From a virus, in IMG/VR virus record IMGVR_UViG_3300001533_001524, positions 1 through 22,875 of that record: DNA of 22,875 nt; one strand, given 5' to 3'. Under the pieces are notes generated by a model that was not told where the DNA came from, did no database searches, and saw nothing but the letters and a program-made list of their open reading frames with translations. The position numbers and the translations under genes are program-made. Of this stretch, positions 6,612-21,329 are shown one piece after another; positions within the stretch are counted from its first letter, which is position 1; the number at the start of each line of letters is the position of its first letter.

Positions 6612-6859
6612 AAATTAGTAAATTCATAGCAATACTTATCTTGTTTGTAGTTATAATGAATTCAATACTTACATGGCAAGCTAATATAAAACGTAGAAAA
6701 GCGATCAAAAGGATGCAAATTCAATTGGTTGAACTTTCACAACTTTCTTTTACTAATGGTTGGTTACTTGGGTCTCAATTTTCTTTTTTTAATGATTCAA
6801 TTAGTTGGGAAAAACAATTAGAAAAAGATAGTATTAATTTTGCAAAAAGGTTTGAGTAA
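6608..6859 (+). CDS. Small membrane-anchored protein (83 aa)
   Basis: The start overlaps the upstream stop (ATGA). Residues about 4-24 form one hydrophobic segment (FIAILILFVVIMNSIL), followed by a basic patch NIKRRKAIKRMQ, which places the rest in the cytoplasm by the positive-inside rule. A helical C-terminal domain follows. It could be a membrane anchor for phage machinery, as spanin-like or superinfection-exclusion proteins are, but nothing in the sequence settles this. It overlaps the exonuclease gene by 1 nt (TAATG). Confidence 0.55.
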   Translation: MKISKFIAILILFVVIMNSILTWQANIKRRKAIKRMQIQLVELSQLSFTNGWLLGSQFSFFNDSISWEKQLEKDSINFAKRFE

Positions 6860-8067
6860 TGTCAGGATTTTTCACAGTTAAAGAAACACAATCACAACAC
6901 CGGCCAGGTGGTAAAGTGTTATCATGTCATAGCTGCGGTTTATACCGTAAAGCTAATTCACCTAAAATGAAACCTTTTGGAAACTTTAAAAAAGGGATTA
7001 TGAACATAGGTAGTGTGCCTGATACTATCGATGATGAAAAAGGTAAACAATGGCAGGGAGCATCTGGTAAATATCTGAAAAACATTTACAATAAATTAGG
7101 TGTGGATTTGTTTGAAGATTGTGTAAACTTAAATGCTATTAATTGTTATTCTGGAAAACTGCCTAAACCATTTGAAATTGATTGTTGCAGAAGAATAGTG
7201 TTAAATGCAATAGAGCAGTACAAACCTAAAGTGATTATCCTGTTTGGCGATTACCCACTTAAATCAATTATAGGTAACCGGTGGAAAGATTCACTTGATG
7301 GAATTGTAAAGTGGCGTGGGTGGACTATACCAGATCAGGATTTAAAAACGTGGGTTTGTCCTACTTTAAATCCTACTTATGTAATGCGAATGGAAAAGAA
7401 TAGGGGGGTTGAACGTGTATTGATTGAAGATTTGGAAAGGGCTTTTTCCAAAGTGAACGAGCCTTTTCCTTATTTTAAAGAACCTGAAATTATTACACTT
7501 GAAAATGATTTGAGTGTACTCGATACAATTCCACCATTAAGTATAGTTGCTTTTGATTATGAAACCACAGGATTAAAACCTCATGCAAAAAGTCACCGAA
7601 TAGTTTCTGCTTCGGTTGCAGTAAATGAAAACAAAGTGTATGTTTTCTTAATCCCAAACAAAGCAAAGGATAGAGAGCCTTTAAAAAGATTGTTGAAAAA
7701 TAAACTTATTAAAAAGATAGCTCAGAATATGAAGTATGAATTAGCATGGAGCAGGGAAATTCTTAAAACTACTGTAAGGAATTGGCATTGGGATACTATG
7801 CTGGCTACTCATGTACTTGATAATAGAAAAGGAGTAACAGGATTGAAGTTTCAGGCATACGTGCAGTTTGGTATTGTAAATTATAACAGTACCGTTGACA
7901 AGGCTTTAAAAGCACCTGAGAGCAACAATCTAAACAGTATTATGGAATTCATTAAGAAACCTAAAAACAGGGCTGAAATGCTTAAATACAATGCTCTGGA
8001 CAGTATTTTTACATACCGGTTATTTTTATTACAGCAGGAAAAGTTTAATTCACTATTACCTTTTTGA
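6859..8067 (+). CDS. UDG-like domain fused to DnaQ/PolA-type 3'-5' exonuclease
   Basis: Two domains in 402 residues. Residues about 15-195 resemble family 4/5 uracil-DNA glycosylases: C23-x2-C26, the NxxxC segment around C96, and C109/C110 fit the four [4Fe-4S] ligands. The active-site block is altered: the usual GEAPG appears as GSVPD (51-55) and the HP motif as NP (171-172). Residues about 225-395 are a DEDDy proofreading exonuclease: Exo I DYET (D233, E235), Exo II QNMKYE (N290, E294), DTML (D312), Exo III Y377-x3-D381. This is the proofreading half of a phage PolA whose polymerase half is the separate gene at 8538. UDG-exo-pol fusions in one chain are known in phages. Whether the UDG part is catalytic is doubtful; it may only bind DNA. 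Confidence 0.82.
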   Translation: MSGFFTVKETQSQHRPGGKVLSCHSCGLYRKANSPKMKPFGNFKKGIMNIGSVPDTIDDEKGKQWQGASGKYLKNIYNKLGVDLFEDCVNLNAINCYSGKLPKPFEIDCCRRIVLNAIEQYKPKVIILFGDYPLKSIIGNRWKDSLDGIVKWRGWTIPDQDLKTWVCPTLNPTYVMRMEKNRGVERVLIEDLERAFSKVNEPFPYFKEPEIITLENDLSVLDTIPPLSIVAFDYETTGLKPHAKSHRIVSASVAVNENKVYVFLIPNKAKDREPLKRLLKNKLIKKIAQNMKYELAWSREILKTTVRNWHWDTMLATHVLDNRKGVTGLKFQAYVQFGIVNYNSTVDKALKAPESNNLNSIMEFIKKPKNRAEMLKYNALDSIFTYRLFLLQQEKFNSLLPF

Positions 8068-8537: not shown

Positions 8538-9926
8538 ATGAATACAGATACTAAATTTGCATACGAATTACTTCACGATGGTATTTTAGCTTTAGCGGAA
8601 GCTGAAAAAAACGGTTTACGAATTGACGTAGATTACATTAAAAAACAGAAAAAAGAAATTTCTGAAAAAATAAAATTACTGGAGCAGGAAATTTACGATA
8701 GTAAGTTTTATAAAGATTGGAGTAAAACTACTACTAAAACAGTTAACATTTACAGCGGTCAGCAATTAGGAAATTATCTTTACAAAACAAAAGGGTTAAA
8801 AATCAGAAAAGAAACCAAAGGAGGTGAGGGTAGTACTGATGAAGAAGCTCTAAGGCTTTTAAACATTCCTGAATTAAACACTTTGCTTGAAATTAAAAAG
8901 CTGAAAAAAGTACGTGATACTTATCTTGCACAGTTTGAACGTGAAACAATAAATGGTTGGATTTATCCTTTCTATAATTTGCATAATGTAGTCAGTTTCA
9001 GAGGCAGTTCAAATTCCCCAAATTTTCAAAACATACCCAAACGTGATAAAGAATCAATGCAGATTACACGCAGGGCAATTTATCCACGTAAAGGACATCA
9101 GTTATTGGAATTGGATTACAGTCAGCTTGAAGTCAGAATTGGGGCGTGTTATTCGGGAGATAAAAAACTGATTGATGATATACTACATGGGGATATGCAC
9201 CGTGATACAGCAATAGAATTATTTAAGATTAGAAACTTTGATAAAGCTGAACCTACTCACAATATGTTAAGGCAAGCTGCAAAAGGAGCTTTTGTATTCG
9301 CTCAATTTTACGGTGATTATTATAAAAATTGTGCGATTAATTTAGTTGAAAATTGGGGTAAATTATCAAAAAGTGTGTGGAAAACAGGGCAGGGAATTGA
9401 TTTTGAGGATAGAAAACTTTCTGACCATTTAATAGAACAAGGTTTAACCAGTTTTAAAAAGTTTGAAAAGCATGTACAAGAAGTAGAATACAACTTTTGG
9501 AAAAAACGGTACAAAACGCATGACAGGTGGCGTGAAAACCTTTGGAAAGAGTATCAGGAAAATAGCTATATTACCAGCAAAACAGGGTTTACTTTTCAGG
9601 GAATTATGAAAAGAAATGATGTAACGAATTATCCTGTACAGGGTGCGGCGTTTCATTGTTTGTTGTGGAGTTTAATCGAGGGTACTAAAGCTCTGAAAAG
9701 AATGAAAATGGATTCAGTTATCGTAGGACAAATACACGATGCAGTGATTTTTGATGTTAATCCTAAAGAACTGAAAAAATTGGTTAAAATTATGCAATGT
9801 ATTATGTGTAATGATGTACGTCAACATTGGCCGTGGATTACCGTTCCATTGGAGATAGGTGCAGAATTGTGTCCGGTGGATGGTAGTTGGGCTGAAAAAG
9901 AGGAAATTGAAATTAACAAGTTATGA
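8538..9926 (+). CDS. polA: Family A DNA polymerase, polymerase domain only
   Basis: The protein of 462 residues holds the palm, fingers and thumb of PolA without an exonuclease domain. Seen: the thumb-to-palm block SFRGSSNSPNFQNIP (residues 153-167); motif A LELDYSQLEVR (D193, E198); motif B R245-x3-K249 to FYG (257-259), with one residue more than E. coli PolA between Lys and Tyr; motif C GQIHDAVIF (H400, D401), with Ala where E. coli has Glu. Both metal-binding aspartates are present, so it should be active. It would be the replicative polymerase, with proofreading supplied by the 6859 protein. The ATG at 8538 follows an A-rich leader, and the stop overlaps the next start. Confidence 0.92.
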   Translation: MNTDTKFAYELLHDGILALAEAEKNGLRIDVDYIKKQKKEISEKIKLLEQEIYDSKFYKDWSKTTTKTVNIYSGQQLGNYLYKTKGLKIRKETKGGEGSTDEEALRLLNIPELNTLLEIKKLKKVRDTYLAQFERETINGWIYPFYNLHNVVSFRGSSNSPNFQNIPKRDKESMQITRRAIYPRKGHQLLELDYSQLEVRIGACYSGDKKLIDDILHGDMHRDTAIELFKIRNFDKAEPTHNMLRQAAKGAFVFAQFYGDYYKNCAINLVENWGKLSKSVWKTGQGIDFEDRKLSDHLIEQGLTSFKKFEKHVQEVEYNFWKKRYKTHDRWRENLWKEYQENSYITSKTGFTFQGIMKRNDVTNYPVQGAAFHCLLWSLIEGTKALKRMKMDSVIVGQIHDAVIFDVNPKELKKLVKIMQCIMCNDVRQHWPWITVPLEIGAELCPVDGSWAEKEEIEINKL

Positions 9927-10578: not shown

Positions 10579-12540
10579 ATGATCTATCAGAAGCATCGTC
10601 CAAAAACATTTGATGAAGTAAAAGGAAACAGGGATGTAGTGGCAGCATTAAAAGCAATGTTAAAAACACCTGAAACAATGCCTCATTCCTTTTTATTTCA
10701 TGGCCCAACAGGTACGGCCAAAACAACCTTAGCAAGAATTGTAGCTAATGAATTAGGTTGTAGTGAAAACAACATCATTGAAATTGATACAGCGCAGTTT
10801 AGAGGGATTGATACTATTCGTGATTTACGAAAAAACATTCAGTACACACCTTTAGGTGGTGGTAAACGTGTTTATATAATTGATGAATGTTTTGTTAAAG
10901 GTACAAAAATTAAATTAAGCAATGGAAATAGCAAATCAATAGAAGATGTTTCAGTGGGTGATTCTGTTTGTAATTTAACTGGAAATGGAAAAGTAACAAA
11001 CACTTTTGTAAATAAAGTAGATTTACAAAGAGTTGTAAAAGTTACTCTTTCAAATAAACAAACAATCACGTGCTCATGTGACCATTTGTTTTATACTAAT
11101 AAAGGATGGGTTAAAGCAAAAAACCTTGAAAATTGTTTTGTGTATTCTAATATTAGTTGTAATTTTGTGGGTAACATTAAATTAGAAAAAACACAAAAGT
11201 ATGAAAACAGAAATGAGACCTTGCCCTATCTGCAAAACACTGTTTGTTTATTACTTGAACAGAACAGCAAAAAACAACAAGAAAGTTTGCAGCAGGAAAT
11301 GTGCGGATATATACAATGCACAGAACAGAGTAGGGAAAAAATGGAAAAAAGAATCCCGACTAAAATTATCACAATCCAGAAGAACGCTTTTAATGGAAAC
11401 AGAGAGGGGAGAGCAAATACGCAAAACACATTCCCTTCGTATGCAAATAAAAAACCCAGCAAAGAATCCAAAGACAATCCAAAAAGCAAAACAAACAAAA
11501 AGGATAAATGGAACATTGCATATTTGGAAAGGAACAAGGGGGGGCAATGGGAAATTAACACAACCACAAATACTTTTAGCAACAGCTTTAGGTTGGGAAA
11601 TGGAATTTCCAATAAAAACAGGACACAACCAAAAAGATTTGTCTGGATTTCCTACTTGTTACAAAGTAGATTTGGGGCAGCCGAATTTAAAAATAGCGAT
11701 AGAAGTAGATGGCAAATTACACAATTGGAAGCAACAGAAATTAAAAGACTTAAAAAAAGAAAAAAAGTTAAAAGAATTGGGGTGGAGAGTGTTGCGTTTT
11801 ACAAACAAGGAAATAATGACAGATATTTCAAAAGTGTTATTGGTGATAAAGAAAGAAATCAAGGGTTTGTAGAATTATATGATTTTGAAGTAGATTCCCA
11901 TCCTTCTTATTTTGCAAATGGAGTTTTAGTACATAACTGTCACAAAATTACAAGTGATGCTCAAAACGCTTTTTTAAAGATACTTGAGGATACACCGAAA
12001 CACATTTACTTTATCCTTTGTACAACTGATCCACAAAGTTTATTACCTACTGTAAAAGGAAGGTGTAGTCAGTTTCAAACAAGTGTATTAACTGATAAGG
12101 TAATGGGGGAATTGTTATCTGAGGTTGCAGAAAAAGAAGGGGTTACACTTGATGAAAAACTAATAGAAACCATTACAGAAAGCAGTCAGGGACACCCACG
12201 CAACGCTTTAACCATACTTGAACAAGTATTGCAAGTACCTGAAAAAAGGCGTTTAAGGGCTGCTAAAAAAGCCTCTGAGGAAAAGTCTGAAAGTATTGCA
12301 CTGTGCAGGGCTTTAATGTACAGGAAAAGCTGGAAAGAAGTTTCAGCTATATTAAAGGGTTTAAAAGGACAAGACCCTGAAAGCATCCGGAGAGTAGTTT
12401 TAGGTTATGCAACAAGTGTACTGTTAAACAAAGATGATGGGAATGCTTTTGCAATCCTTGAATGTTTTGAAGACCCCACGTATAACATCGGATTTCCAGG
12501 AATTGTGCTTGCGTGTCAAAGAGTTTTAAATTACGAATAA
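10579..12540 (+). CDS. dnaX: Clamp loader ATPase (DnaX/RFC-like) precursor containing an intein
   Basis: The 653-residue precursor would give a 303-residue mature AAA+ clamp loader after removal of a 350-residue intein. N-extein (1-103): MIYQKHRPKTFDEVKG is the classic DnaX start, with Walker A GPTGTAKTT (42-50). The intein splits the Walker B/DExH motif after YIIDE; the C-extein resumes at C454 with CHKITSDAQNAFLKILED, then sensor 1 (FILCTTDP), KGRCSQF and sensor 2 GHPRNAL. Joined, the motif reads IIDECHK, which fits DnaX. The zinc-binding CxxC module of bacterial DnaX is absent. It opens and loads the clamp at 3915. Splicing is required for ATP hydrolysis, because the intein lies in the catalytic motif. 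Start is ATG at 10579. Confidence 0.92.
   Translation: MIYQKHRPKTFDEVKGNRDVVAALKAMLKTPETMPHSFLFHGPTGTAKTTLARIVANELGCSENNIIEIDTAQFRGIDTIRDLRKNIQYTPLGGGKRVYIIDECFVKGTKIKLSNGNSKSIEDVSVGDSVCNLTGNGKVTNTFVNKVDLQRVVKVTLSNKQTITCSCDHLFYTNKGWVKAKNLENCFVYSNISCNFVGNIKLEKTQKYENRNETLPYLQNTVCLLLEQNSKKQQESLQQEMCGYIQCTEQSREKMEKRIPTKIITIQKNAFNGNREGRANTQNTFPSYANKKPSKESKDNPKSKTNKKDKWNIAYLERNKGGQWEINTTTNTFSNSFRLGNGISNKNRTQPKRFVWISYLLQSRFGAAEFKNSDRSRWQITQLEATEIKRLKKRKKVKRIGVESVAFYKQGNNDRYFKSVIGDKERNQGFVELYDFEVDSHPSYFANGVLVHNCHKITSDAQNAFLKILEDTPKHIYFILCTTDPQSLLPTVKGRCSQFQTSVLTDKVMGELLSEVAEKEGVTLDEKLIETITESSQGHPRNALTILEQVLQVPEKRRLRAAKKASEEKSESIALCRALMYRKSWKEVSAILKGLKGQDPESIRRVVLGYATSVLLNKDDGNAFAILECFEDPTYNIGFPGIVLACQRVLNYE
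10888..11937 (+). mobile_element. Intein in clamp loader Walker B motif (350 aa)
   Basis: Block A begins with Cys1 (CFVKGTKIKLSNG). GDSVCNLTGNG follows, then block B ITCSCDHLFYTNKGW with H66 as the catalytic His; the usual TxxH Thr appears as Ser63. Blocks F and G (YDFEVDSHPSYFANGVLVHN, residues 331-350) end in His349-Asn350 and are followed by the +1 Cys of the extein. All residues needed for splicing are present. The splicing parts are about residues 1-100 and 328-350. The part between is not a normal in-frame endonuclease: in the intein frame it is a polar Lys/Asn/Gln-rich chain, while the +1 frame encodes the endonuclease at 11201. The target, a highly conserved replication ATPase motif, is typical for inteins. 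Confidence 0.93.
11201..11872 (+). CDS. Homing endonuclease (Vsr/EDxHD-like) nested out of frame inside the intein
   Basis: A 223-residue protein in the frame one base ahead of the intein. It has its own ATG at 11201 behind an A-rich leader (AAAACACAAAAGT), like other starts here, and its own TAG at 11870-11872. N-terminus: a zinc-finger-like C8-x2-C11...C30-x3-C34. Next comes a NUMOD3-like DNA-binding stretch (GKKWKKESRLKLSQSRR, 45-61). The C-terminal nuclease domain (about 150-215) is Vsr/DUF559-like: KVDLG (D157), IAIEVDGKLH (E168, D170, H174), then ELGWRVLRFTNKEI. The order agrees with EDxHD-type homing endonucleases, first known from fractured genes with split inteins. It would cut intein-less clamp-loader genes so that the intein is copied in. 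Confidence 0.87.
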   Translation: MKTEMRPCPICKTLFVYYLNRTAKNNKKVCSRKCADIYNAQNRVGKKWKKESRLKLSQSRRTLLMETERGEQIRKTHSLRMQIKNPAKNPKTIQKAKQTKRINGTLHIWKGTRGGNGKLTQPQILLATALGWEMEFPIKTGHNQKDLSGFPTCYKVDLGQPNLKIAIEVDGKLHNWKQQKLKDLKKEKKLKELGWRVLRFTNKEIMTDISKVLLVIKKEIKGL

Positions 12541-18175: not shown

Positions 18176-18183
18176 TTTTGAAT

Positions 18184-19224
18184 ATGATTAACAAAATTTC
18201 GATACAAAATTTTCAATCCCATAAAAATACTGAATTGCATTTTGACAAAAGTGTAAATGTAATCATCGGTAGTAGTGATAGTGGAAAAACAGCAATCATC
18301 AGAGCTTTACGATGGTTAATGTGGAACAAACCTGGTGGTGATTCTTTTCGTAGTTATTGGGGTGGGGATACGGTTGTATCTGCTAAAATAGACAAAACTG
18401 TTATTAGCAGAAGCAAAGGTAATTCTAATCTTTATGAGGTTGATGATACTCCATTTACAGGTTTTGGTACAAACGTACCCGATGAAATCCAAAAGGTTTT
18501 TAACATTTCAGAAATTAATCTTCAACAACAGCTTGATACACCGTTTCTTTTAACTGAAAGTCCGGGCAATGTAGCAAAGCATTTTAACAAAATTGCTAAA
18601 CTCGATAAAATTGATACTGCTACAAGTGAACTTAAAAGAAAGATTAATTCTATCAACACTACAATACGTGTAAAAGAGGAAAAGCTAAACAGCTATCAGG
18701 AAACTTTATCCACTTTTCCAGACCTTGATTTAGTTGAGGTTAAACTTGAGGATATTGAGGATTTAGAAATTAAACGAAACACTTTATCCAAAGATATTAG
18801 TTCATTAACACGGTTAATTGACAACATTAAAATAGTTAGGGAAAAGATTGAAGTGGTTCAATCAGAATTAATCTATGAAGATAAAATTAATAAATTAATT
18901 GAATCTGTAAATCAACGTGAACAGAAAAAACAGAAAGCTAATTCTTTACTTTCTATTTTAAATTCTATTGAAACTTTAGAACAGGAAATTACTGAAAAAG
19001 AAAAATTAACTGGTTTAGAAAGCAAGGTTAACAGTCTTATTGAATTAACAGGGGTTAAACGTACCAAATTAACCGTTGTAAACGCTTTAACTGTTTTAGT
19101 AGGTAAAGTGCTTACTATTGAAACAAAGTTGCTTAAAACGCAGGAAAATGTTTCTGTATTAAAGGAAAAATTTCATAAAGAAATGGGTGCAGTGTGTGTT
19201 TTGTGTGGAAGTAAATTAAAATAA
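18184..19224 (+). CDS. sbcC: N-terminal half of SbcC/Rad50-like ATPase, ending in a zinc hook
   Basis: ATG at 18184 is preferred to TTG 18178. The N-terminus MINKISIQNFQSH and P-loop GSSDSGKT (29-36) are typical of SbcC/Rad50; the Q-loop region (NLQQQLDTPFLL) lies near 112-123. A long coiled coil (about 140-330) follows. The protein stops right after CVLC (C338-x2-C341), the zinc-hook signature, with only GSKLK behind it. A whole Rad50 would continue into a returning coil and a second ATPase half; that half is the separate gene at 20718. Together with SbcD (19358) they would form a DNA-end-processing complex. The RNA at 17751 lies directly upstream. Confidence 0.88.
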   Translation: MINKISIQNFQSHKNTELHFDKSVNVIIGSSDSGKTAIIRALRWLMWNKPGGDSFRSYWGGDTVVSAKIDKTVISRSKGNSNLYEVDDTPFTGFGTNVPDEIQKVFNISEINLQQQLDTPFLLTESPGNVAKHFNKIAKLDKIDTATSELKRKINSINTTIRVKEEKLNSYQETLSTFPDLDLVEVKLEDIEDLEIKRNTLSKDISSLTRLIDNIKIVREKIEVVQSELIYEDKINKLIESVNQREQKKQKANSLLSILNSIETLEQEITEKEKLTGLESKVNSLIELTGVKRTKLTVVNALTVLVGKVLTIETKLLKTQENVSVLKEKFHKEMGAVCVLCGSKLK

Positions 19225-19230
19225 AACTAA

Positions 19231-19392
19231 ATGGAAAAGTTTAACAATTTTTTACGTAAGTATGAATGTGCAACAGAGGATTTATGTGATACGTGCTACT
19301 GGTCAAATGGGGAAATGTGTATCCGGCAATTATTAACTAAAGAAGAAATTAAAGAACATGAAGAAAAACATAAAGCAAGCAAAAAATCCTGA
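19231..19392 (+). CDS. Small cysteine-rich (zinc-binding) protein (53 aa)
   Basis: Seven nt after the sbcC N-half stop. It has four cysteines, C13-x5-C19-x2-C22-x7-C30, in a compact block (CATEDLCDTCYWSNGEMC) that would suit a zinc site, followed by a charged helix LTKEEIKEHEEKHKASKKS. Its 3' end overlaps the SbcD start by 35 nt. It sits between the zinc-hook half of Rad50 and SbcD, so it may belong to that complex. No family recognised. Confidence 0.6.
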   Translation: MEKFNNFLRKYECATEDLCDTCYWSNGEMCIRQLLTKEEIKEHEEKHKASKKS

Positions 19393-20227
19393 TGCTATTC
19401 TTTGTAGTGATTTTCATTTACGTGAGGATACTCCAATTTGCAGAACAGATGATTTTTGGGAAGCACAATGGAAAAAAGTAGATTTTGTTTCTGAATTGCA
19501 AAAGAAACACAATTGTCCGGTATTTCATGCAGGGGATTTGTTTCATCATTGGAAACCCTCGCCTTATTTACTTTCCAAAACAATCGAGCATTTACCTGAT
19601 GATTTTTATACTGTTTACGGCAATCACGATTTACCACAACATAGTATAGAATTAAAAGAAAAGAGTGGGATTTACACTTTGTGGCAAGCTAAAGCATTAA
19701 AAATATTTCAACAGGGGCATTGGAATAGTTTACCTGATGATATAAGTTGTGAAATAAAAGGAAAACAAGTTTACGTTTGGCATGAATTTGTTTATACAGG
19801 TAAAGAACTTTTTCCGGGGGCAGAAGGAAGAGCAAGGTCTATCATGGAAAAATATAAACAGTTTGATTTAATTGTAACCGGCGATAATCATCAGAGTTTT
19901 GTTTATCCTTTAGATGGCAGGTTGTTAGTTAATCCCGGTTCACTAATGAGGCAGGAAGCAGGGCAAATAGATTTTAAACCTTCTGTTTATTTGTGGTTTG
20001 CAAAGGATAATTCAGTTGAAAGGGTTTATTTACCAATTGATGAAAACGTAGTTTCCCGTGAACACATTATAAAAGTAGAAGAAAGGGATGAACGAATGGA
20101 TGCTTTTATCAGTAAATTAAATGATGATATACAAACAACATTAAGTTTTGAGGAAAACATTAAAAGATTTTTGGCTAAGAACCGAATGAGAAAACCAGTT
20201 AAAGATATAATAAACAGTGTACTTTAA
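19358..20227 (+). CDS. sbcD: SbcD/Mre11-like nuclease
   Basis: A calcineurin-type metallophosphoesterase of 289 residues. Metal-ligand motifs in order: SDFH (D18, H20), HAGD (D60), GNHD (N89-D91), VWHEF (H142) and GDNH (175-178; the usual GHxH first His is replaced by Asp). NPGS follows at about 192-195. This is the Mre11/SbcD core; the C-terminal capping and Rad50-binding helices are short (about 235-289). It would cut DNA ends and hairpins together with the split SbcC. The start overlaps the small cysteine-rich gene in another frame. The replacement in the last motif also occurs in some phage enzymes as I recall, but its effect here is unknown. Confidence 0.85.
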   Translation: MKKNIKQAKNPDAILCSDFHLREDTPICRTDDFWEAQWKKVDFVSELQKKHNCPVFHAGDLFHHWKPSPYLLSKTIEHLPDDFYTVYGNHDLPQHSIELKEKSGIYTLWQAKALKIFQQGHWNSLPDDISCEIKGKQVYVWHEFVYTGKELFPGAEGRARSIMEKYKQFDLIVTGDNHQSFVYPLDGRLLVNPGSLMRQEAGQIDFKPSVYLWFAKDNSVERVYLPIDENVVSREHIIKVEERDERMDAFISKLNDDIQTTLSFEENIKRFLAKNRMRKPVKDIINSVL

Positions 20228-20485: not shown

Positions 20486-20728
20486 ATGAAAGAACAAGAA
20501 TTATTTGAATTAAAAGAGGAAATTGAAGAATCTAAACAAGAGTTAGCTGAACTGAAAGGTGAAAAACAAGCATTGATGAAAAGGTTAATTGAGGAATGGG
20601 GCTGTAAAACAACCAAAGCAGCCAGAAAAACACTTGATGAAATGAAAACTGAATTGGAAACAATCACTTCTAATATTAACAGTGGTTTAGAAGAACTTGA
20701 ATTAATGCTTGAATCGAATGGAAACTAA
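20486..20728 (+). CDS. Coiled-coil protein between sbcD and the Rad50 C-half (80 aa)
   Basis: Nearly the whole sequence is heptad-repeat coiled coil rich in Glu, Lys and Leu (FELKEEIEESKQELAELKGE near residues 6-25), with one Cys at about 40. It starts 2 nt after the previous stop and overlaps the 20718 gene. The C-half of Rad50 has a much shorter coil (about 65 residues) than the N-half (about 190). So this protein could supply part of the missing return coil, or pair with it; that is inference. Confidence 0.65.
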   Translation: MKEQELFELKEEIEESKQELAELKGEKQALMKRLIEEWGCKTTKAARKTLDEMKTELETITSNINSGLEELELMLESNGN

Positions 20729-21329
20729 AACCGTCAGGGCTAAATTAGAACGTTTTAAAGGGGCTAAAGAATCAGTAATGAAAAACATTAGCTCTACCGG
20801 CAAAGAGCTTGCAGAGGTGCGTAAAAGCCTTAAATACCATGAACAGGCAAAAGAAGTGATTAAGCAGGTGGGTTTAGCTACCCAACAGCAATTACAATAT
20901 CACATCAGCGATATTACAACACTTGCACTTGAAAGTATTTTTGACAACGCTTATAAGTTAGAAGCTGAATTTGTTGAACGAAGGGATAAAACAGAATGTG
21001 ATTTGATGTTTGTACGTGATGGGGAGTATTTAGACCCCATCACTGCAAGCGGTGGGGGTGCAGTTGATGTGGCTTCTTTTGCTTTACGAATTGCAAGCTG
21101 GAGTATGGAATACCCACGTTTACGAAATGTGATTATCCTTGATGAACCTATGCGTTTTCTTAGTGAAGATTTACAGGAAAAAGCAAGTAAAATGATTAAA
21201 GAATTATCCGATAAGTTAGGAATCCAATTTTTGTTAATCACGCATGAGCAAGAATTAACTACTTATGCAGATAAAGTATTTGAAGTAAGAATTAAAAAAG
21301 GAATTAGTAAAGTAATTGAAAAACAATAA
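20718..21329 (+). CDS. sbcC: C-terminal half of SbcC/Rad50-like ATPase
   Basis: ATG at 20718 is preferred to TTG 20709. After a coil (about 1-65) come the ABC signature SGGGAVD (111-117), Walker B VIILDEP (138-144), the D-loop region MRFLSED and the switch His in LLITHEQE (H176). These are the second-half elements of SbcC/Rad50; no P-loop and no zinc hook are present. It must combine with the 18184 product, which brings Walker A and the hook, to form an ATPase site. Splitting at the hook keeps each half a natural folding unit. The genes are separated by about 1.5 kb holding SbcD and three small genes, so a recent single frameshift is excluded. Confidence 0.87.
   Translation: METKTVRAKLERFKGAKESVMKNISSTGKELAEVRKSLKYHEQAKEVIKQVGLATQQQLQYHISDITTLALESIFDNAYKLEAEFVERRDKTECDLMFVRDGEYLDPITASGGGAVDVASFALRIASWSMEYPRLRNVIILDEPMRFLSEDLQEKASKMIKELSDKLGIQFLLITHEQELTTYADKVFEVRIKKGISKVIEKQ

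Follow-up and report, generated by a model that had tools for sequence, protein, structure and literature searches.

Here, we analyze a clamp-loader locus in a virus fragment from the IMG/VR collection; the fragment in its entirety, 22,875 bases, is referred to as the window. Replication and repair genes are present in the window. A family A DNA polymerase is split into an ORF in which a uracil-DNA-glycosylase is fused to a 3'-5' exonuclease (6859-8067) and a polymerase ORF of its own (8538-9926), and an SbcC-like ATPase is apparently split into an N-terminal half (18178-19224) and a C-terminal half (20709-21329), between which lies an SbcD-like phosphoesterase (19358-20227). The gene at 10579-12540 encodes a DnaX/delta'-like clamp loader. 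An intein at 10888-11937 interrupts this gene at Walker B, and inside the intein a second ORF occupies the +1 frame. The features of the locus are:

10579 to 10887, plus strand: N-extein of the clamp loader (DnaX/delta'-like AAA+ ATPase; Pfam DNA_pol3_delta2 / AAA), ending ...VYIIDE at Walker B, where empty-site relatives read DE-C/V-H.
10888 to 11937, plus strand: class 1 intein of 350 aa, with Cys1, His66 and His349-Asn350, followed by a +1 Cys.
10888 to 11157, plus strand: N-terminal half of the predicted Hint domain, residues 1-90, outside the overlap (AlphaFold pLDDT ~97; Foldseek matches to gp41-1, DnaB and RecA inteins).
11160 to 11200, plus strand: A-rich stretch 5' of the nested ATG, without a Shine-Dalgarno sequence, as at all other gene starts in the window.
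11201 to 11872, plus strand: nested ORF for a predicted homing endonuclease of 223 aa, in the +1 frame relative to the intein, with an ATG start and a TAG stop at 11870-11872.
11222 to 11302, plus strand: N-terminal zinc-finger-like CxxC...CxxxC of the endonuclease (C8, C11, C30, C34), 4/4 Cys invariant in alignment A1.
11561 to 11869, plus strand: predicted catalytic domain of the endonuclease, DUF559/Vsr-like, with invariant residues, I-Bth0305I as the top PDB fold match and profile matches to 3hrl and 3r3p.
11201 to 11757, plus strand: intein-frame reading of the overlap, a stop-free, ~190-aa linker predicted to be disordered (pLDDT ~48 for residues 105-290; identity 0.18).
11767 to 11871, plus strand: dual-coded segment, comprising the endonuclease C-terminus (GW..LRF onward) and the intein C-terminal half before block F; predicted structured in the intein frame and conserved at 0.31-0.34.
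11872 to 11937, plus strand: intein C-terminal splicing blocks F and G (ELYDFEV...VHN), identified by TIGR01443 and profile.
11938 to 12540, plus strand: C-extein of the clamp loader, starting CHKIT; the predicted spliced product has 303 aa.

A first-pass annotation made from the letters alone had proposed the intein with these coordinates, phase and splicing residues, as well as the nested ORF with its start, stop and +1 phase, and all of these are borne out. The intein matches Pfam Intein_splicing (3e-9) and NCBIfam, and C1, H66 and N350 are invariant in 75 relatives. In structure prediction, for which rows from annotated phage records were excluded from the alignments, the intein frame adopts a Hint fold formed by residues 1-90 and ~291-350 with pLDDT mostly >90, matching gp41-1 and other inteins, and a disordered stretch (pLDDT near 48) connects the two halves. 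The element, thus, has the residues and the predicted fold of a class 1 intein of the Hint superfamily, and splicing is predicted. Two details of the first-pass annotation need correction. The C-terminal splicing segment after the TAG has 22 residues rather than 23, and the C-terminal half does not begin at the TAG, as the folded part starts earlier, at ~residue 291-294, inside the overlap. One uninterrupted ORF runs from the N- to the C-extein in every locus with both halves, which sets the element apart from split inteins and fractured genes. In canonical full-length inteins, the endonuclease is in frame with the splicing domains; here and in all intein-borne relatives, it is in the +1 frame.

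The nested ORF matches DUF559 (5e-12), and its putative catalytic residues D157 (11669), E168 (11702), D170 (11708), H174 (11720) and D183 (11747) are invariant in 71 sequences. The AlphaFold model has a mean pLDDT of 93.9. Ranked against solved folds, I-Bth0305I and 3hrl are closest, followed by TnsA and Vsr, and profile searches agree; the Foldseek E-values are modest (0.005 at best) because the catalytic domain alone matches. With this catalytic fold and the D, E, D, H, D residues, the nested product is predicted to be an EDxHD/Vsr-type endonuclease, in line with the earlier description as Vsr-like. The NUMOD3-like part of that description does not hold, as a Pfam search at E 0.01 detected NUMOD3 in 0/75 members; the conserved features include a short NPM motif.

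Several lines of evidence support the earlier idea that the DNA is held open in two frames. First, if the endonuclease amino-acid sequence is kept and its synonymous codons are sampled according to usage in the remainder of the gene, ~20 intein-frame stops are expected at this locus and 0 are seen (P(no stop) ~10^-12), while the third frame contains the stops previously listed at 11202, 11214, 11256, 11331 and 11361 plus further ones. An open frame in the same phase was sought in 14 other window genes and found in 0/14. Second, 83 distinct loci, which are not independent tests because the sequences share ancestry, have 0 intein-frame stops across the endonuclease compared with 11.0 expected from codon usage and 7.7 expected when synonymous codons are shuffled within each gene. 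Third, stops in the +1 phase are possible only where an NNT codon precedes a codon beginning with AA, AG or GA. T-ending codons occur at 0/4465 of these positions and at 2755/10851 elsewhere, and each amino acid tested shows this avoidance (F, Y, H, N, D and C together, 0/502 vs ~0.6). In a free-standing relative of the endonuclease (L031), the frame that is open elsewhere contains nine stops.

This strict avoidance of host-frame stops also bears on an explanation in which a self-splicing, ORF-containing RNA intron interrupts the gene and the clamp-loader frame is open incidentally. EDxHD/Vsr endonucleases are known from phage introns (PMC3943268) and group II introns (PMC12350094), which would fit an intron. 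However, an intron does not need an open host frame, the intein residues are invariant in all relatives, and the Hint fold is predicted with high confidence; an RNA intron is, therefore, very improbable. As for the phase, the other out-of-frame phase carries a different constraint, because a Met followed by a residue encoded only by codons starting with A forces a TGA, and this combination is present in 74/83 endonucleases. In the +1 phase, a silent T-to-C change removes every forced intein-frame stop, and this is probably why the phase is fixed at +1.

In comparisons of related pairs, changes in the endonuclease frame fall mainly at third positions, and amino-acid identity is higher in the endonuclease frame than in the overlapped intein frame. 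By these substitution patterns, the endonuclease frame is under purifying selection. The invariant endonuclease residue Arg199 is encoded by AGA/AGG in 63/80 cases compared with 411/1096 of the other arginines (raw counts from loci that share ancestry). This skew fits a need for the residues that it creates in the intein frame and suggests that the intein frame is also under selection. Because of its pLDDT of ~48 and identity of 0.18, most of the overlap appears to be merely an open, unstructured loop for the intein. By contrast, the last 35 residues of the overlap are, according to the models and conservation, coded for structure twice.

The proposal that the endonuclease is expressed apart from splicing is supported by its start signals. 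A strong Shine-Dalgarno sequence lies near the nested ATG in 53% of loci if the best of several candidate ATGs is taken, and in 40% for the first ATG alone, compared with background values of 7% for internal endonuclease ATGs and 6% for the host frame, i.e., an ~eightfold enrichment at the nested start. Several loci combine a strong Shine-Dalgarno sequence with a stop codon directly 5' of the nested ATG. The alternative is a programmed +1 frameshift from the intein frame, generating an N-intein-endonuclease fusion and no separate protein. A frameshift would explain why the phase is always +1 and why some loci lack a clear start signal. In L024, L058 and L096, however, the first codon of the open endonuclease frame is itself an ATG with a strong Shine-Dalgarno sequence, leaving no space for an upstream shift, and in the window it opens just 15 nt before the ATG at 11201. 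The missing Shine-Dalgarno sequence at 11201 is uninformative because no window gene has one. The enrichment and the frames that open at the ATG favor internal initiation over frameshifting, indicating that the endonuclease would be translated separately, and we consider a frameshift unlikely. In L042 (4001-4513) and L047 (4001-4456), the endonuclease frame extends 34-37 bases beyond the intein 3' end into the C-extein, so that the last endonuclease residues would be encoded by the target gene.

The first-pass annotation had suggested a search for the same double-frame layout in related phages, and three partly overlapping searches recovered it in ~190 loci in total, not all of which are distinct contigs. 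With the window's endonuclease alone, a scan of viral contigs gave no relatives; a five-sequence profile was required. With this profile, viral contigs yielded 211 relatives, of which 80 were kept, and prokaryote contigs yielded 40. In 97/98 loci from this endonuclease-led search, the same second frame is open across the endonuclease inside a longer host ORF, and both splicing halves were located in nearly all loci, the few gaps being truncated contigs. The sole exception is L031 (3356-3982), which lies on a phage contig 5' of a helicase-like gene and has no surrounding intein. The frame-blind intein searches used an exact DNA pattern and the clamp-loader subset, an alignment of 24 N-terminal splicing domains being too diverse. 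At DE^CFPAGT sites, 62/63 complete inteins have an endonuclease or its remnant in +1 and the remaining one is an empty mini-intein, while 33/36 clamp-loader intein loci have a +1 endonuclease. In the latter scan, L331 had a miscut boundary and is on the same contig as L007, which has a +1 endonuclease; L361 and L363 are either truncated or something other than inteins. Among the ~96 complete inteins from the frame-blind scans, 0 have the endonuclease in frame and 0 in +2. Small inteins of 141-188 aa (L219, L243, L332, L337, L338, L356 and L360) keep endonuclease remnants in +1, as expected from element decay in the deletion stages of a homing cycle.

These surveys address two further explanations. 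In one, sequencing or assembly indels displaced a normal in-frame endonuclease, and two compensating indels could indeed yield the pattern in a single record. However, the exact phase is common to the ~190 loci, including the independently sequenced isolates CP-T1, 1.088.O, MR14 and phi673, and the codon avoidance in the intein frame spans the whole overlap; the homologues refute an artifact, the probability of which is negligible. In the other, also raised by the first-pass annotation, the endonuclease is a recent insertion or relic in a passively open intein, i.e., an evolutionary intermediate between the in-frame and split states. In other lineages, the endonuclease is indeed an in-frame domain or a free-standing gene located between split halves. 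Against an intermediate, the catalytic residues are invariant, the endonuclease frame appears to be under purifying selection, and a single phase is kept throughout a deep tree, in many phages and in two host-gene superfamilies. Moreover, none of the ~190 loci is an in-frame or split relative that might be a recent source of the nested layout. An intermediate state is, therefore, highly unlikely, and an endonuclease gene stably overprinted on the intein is the reading that we retain. The layout is present in the cultured Vibrio phages CP-T1, 1.088.O, K391 and 104E43.1, Pseudomonas phage MR14 and Corynebacterium phage phi673; 7/7 cultured-phage records examined have an annotation for the host gene but none for the nested one. 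Thus, the layout, which is conserved in far more than 100 further phage sequences, is widespread and has apparently gone unrecognized.

Both clamp loaders and SF2 helicases (ResIII, DEAD and SNF2 types) serve as host genes, and in each of them the intein is inserted at Walker B, DE^C(H). In the endonuclease tree, the window belongs to a supported group whose elements lie in clamp loaders (24) or helicases (3), from which we conclude that changes of host gene occur but are few. Of 80 matched uninterrupted clamp-loader relatives, an intein-free Walker B was located in 74, and close intein-free relatives of the window read DEVH or DECH at this motif. Vibrio phages CP-T1 and vB_VchM-138 provide an occupied and an empty allele, respectively: their helicases are ~96% identical, and the former has exactly a 1059-bp intein extra. 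The junction reads GATGAG^TGCCAT in CP-T1 compared with GATGAA-GCTCAT in vB_VchM-138, giving Cys and Ala, respectively, as the +1 residue. We infer that this Ala-to-Cys difference may reflect co-conversion during homing, and the pair is consistent with the predicted cleavage of an intein-less allele. Because DUF559 is a broad nuclease family, the target specificity is putative.

The architecture, its conservation, the codon avoidance, the fold predictions and the precise insertion come directly from the sequence. Altogether, these findings support, with a probability of roughly 90%, that the locus is a mobile class 1 intein on which a separate homing endonuclease gene is overprinted in the +1 frame. 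From the sequence, the structure models and the compared alleles, we infer that the intein splices and homes and that the nested ORF is translated into a DNA-cleaving enzyme, as follows. Read-through of the clamp-loader frame would produce a 653-aa precursor, in which the two splicing halves would fold together around a disordered loop of ~190 residues, and the intein would then excise itself to leave the 303-aa clamp loader. Separate initiation at the ATG at 11201 on the same mRNA would yield the 223-aa EDxHD/Vsr-type endonuclease. In co-infecting phages with an intein-less allele, this protein would recognize the sequence that encodes Walker B, GAYGAR^TGYCAY, and cut nearby. Repair would copy the whole element in, and the +1 codon would become Cys where it was previously another.

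This element resembles several known systems and differs from each of them. As in canonical PI-SceI-type inteins, the Hint halves are interrupted, mobility would be at the DNA level, and there is decay to mini-inteins; however, in those inteins the endonuclease is within the intein polypeptide, whereas here it is a separate, overlapping +1 gene. Dassa et al. 2009 are said to have described free-standing EDxHD/Vsr endonuclease genes between split-intein halves, referred to as fractured genes. These share the phage setting, the endonuclease superfamily and an endonuclease that is its own protein, but in our case the intein is contiguous and predicted to splice in cis, and the endonuclease overlaps rather than separates the halves. 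I-Bth0305I (3r3p), the EDxHD endonuclease of a group I intron and our top structural match, has the same catalytic fold and motif but is encoded by an RNA intron and has other DNA-binding domains. In 2025, out-of-frame HNH insertions without a splicing domain were reported in phage methylases (PMC11855218). Like the present element, the ShiLan domain and Pacc40 in that study involve an out-of-frame endonuclease ORF in a host gene that is kept open. By contrast, theirs is an HNH endonuclease, in the third frame for ShiLan, there is no detectable splicing domain, and the insertion is predicted to be retained in the protein, while the endonuclease described here is of the DUF559/Vsr type and is accompanied by a complete splicing domain. 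The literature that we found on out-of-frame or overlapping endonucleases in inteins comprised only the ShiLan paper and one genome announcement, and it contained no earlier cis-splicing intein whose endonuclease overlaps it in a different frame. A preprint from 2025 that deals with inteins of actinobacteriophages ("non-canonical architecture") may bear on priority, especially because phi673 has an actinobacterial host.

A 2020 review recognizes only full-length, mini and split inteins (PMC7765530). We consider it likely that the elements described here represent a fourth configuration that is common in phages, i.e., a contiguous, cis-splicing intein that is permanently overprinted, in a fixed phase, by an independently translated endonuclease gene, in which some of the DNA specifies folded protein twice, once per frame, and a single family has spread among the Walker B motifs of unrelated ATPase families. 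This configuration would add an architecture to the accepted set of in-frame, mini and split inteins, and it suggests that one stretch of DNA can encode both splicing and homing and yet express them as separate proteins, so that the dose of the endonuclease could be set by its own start site. The loci also constitute an extensive natural collection of long overlapping genes in which a simple rule determines the possible phase, which may be useful for studies of overprinting, and they represent a whole gene family overlooked by annotation. Because the target would be the Walker B codons of core replication ATPases, its choice would explain the jumps between otherwise unrelated genes, and the same target may serve endonuclease engineering.
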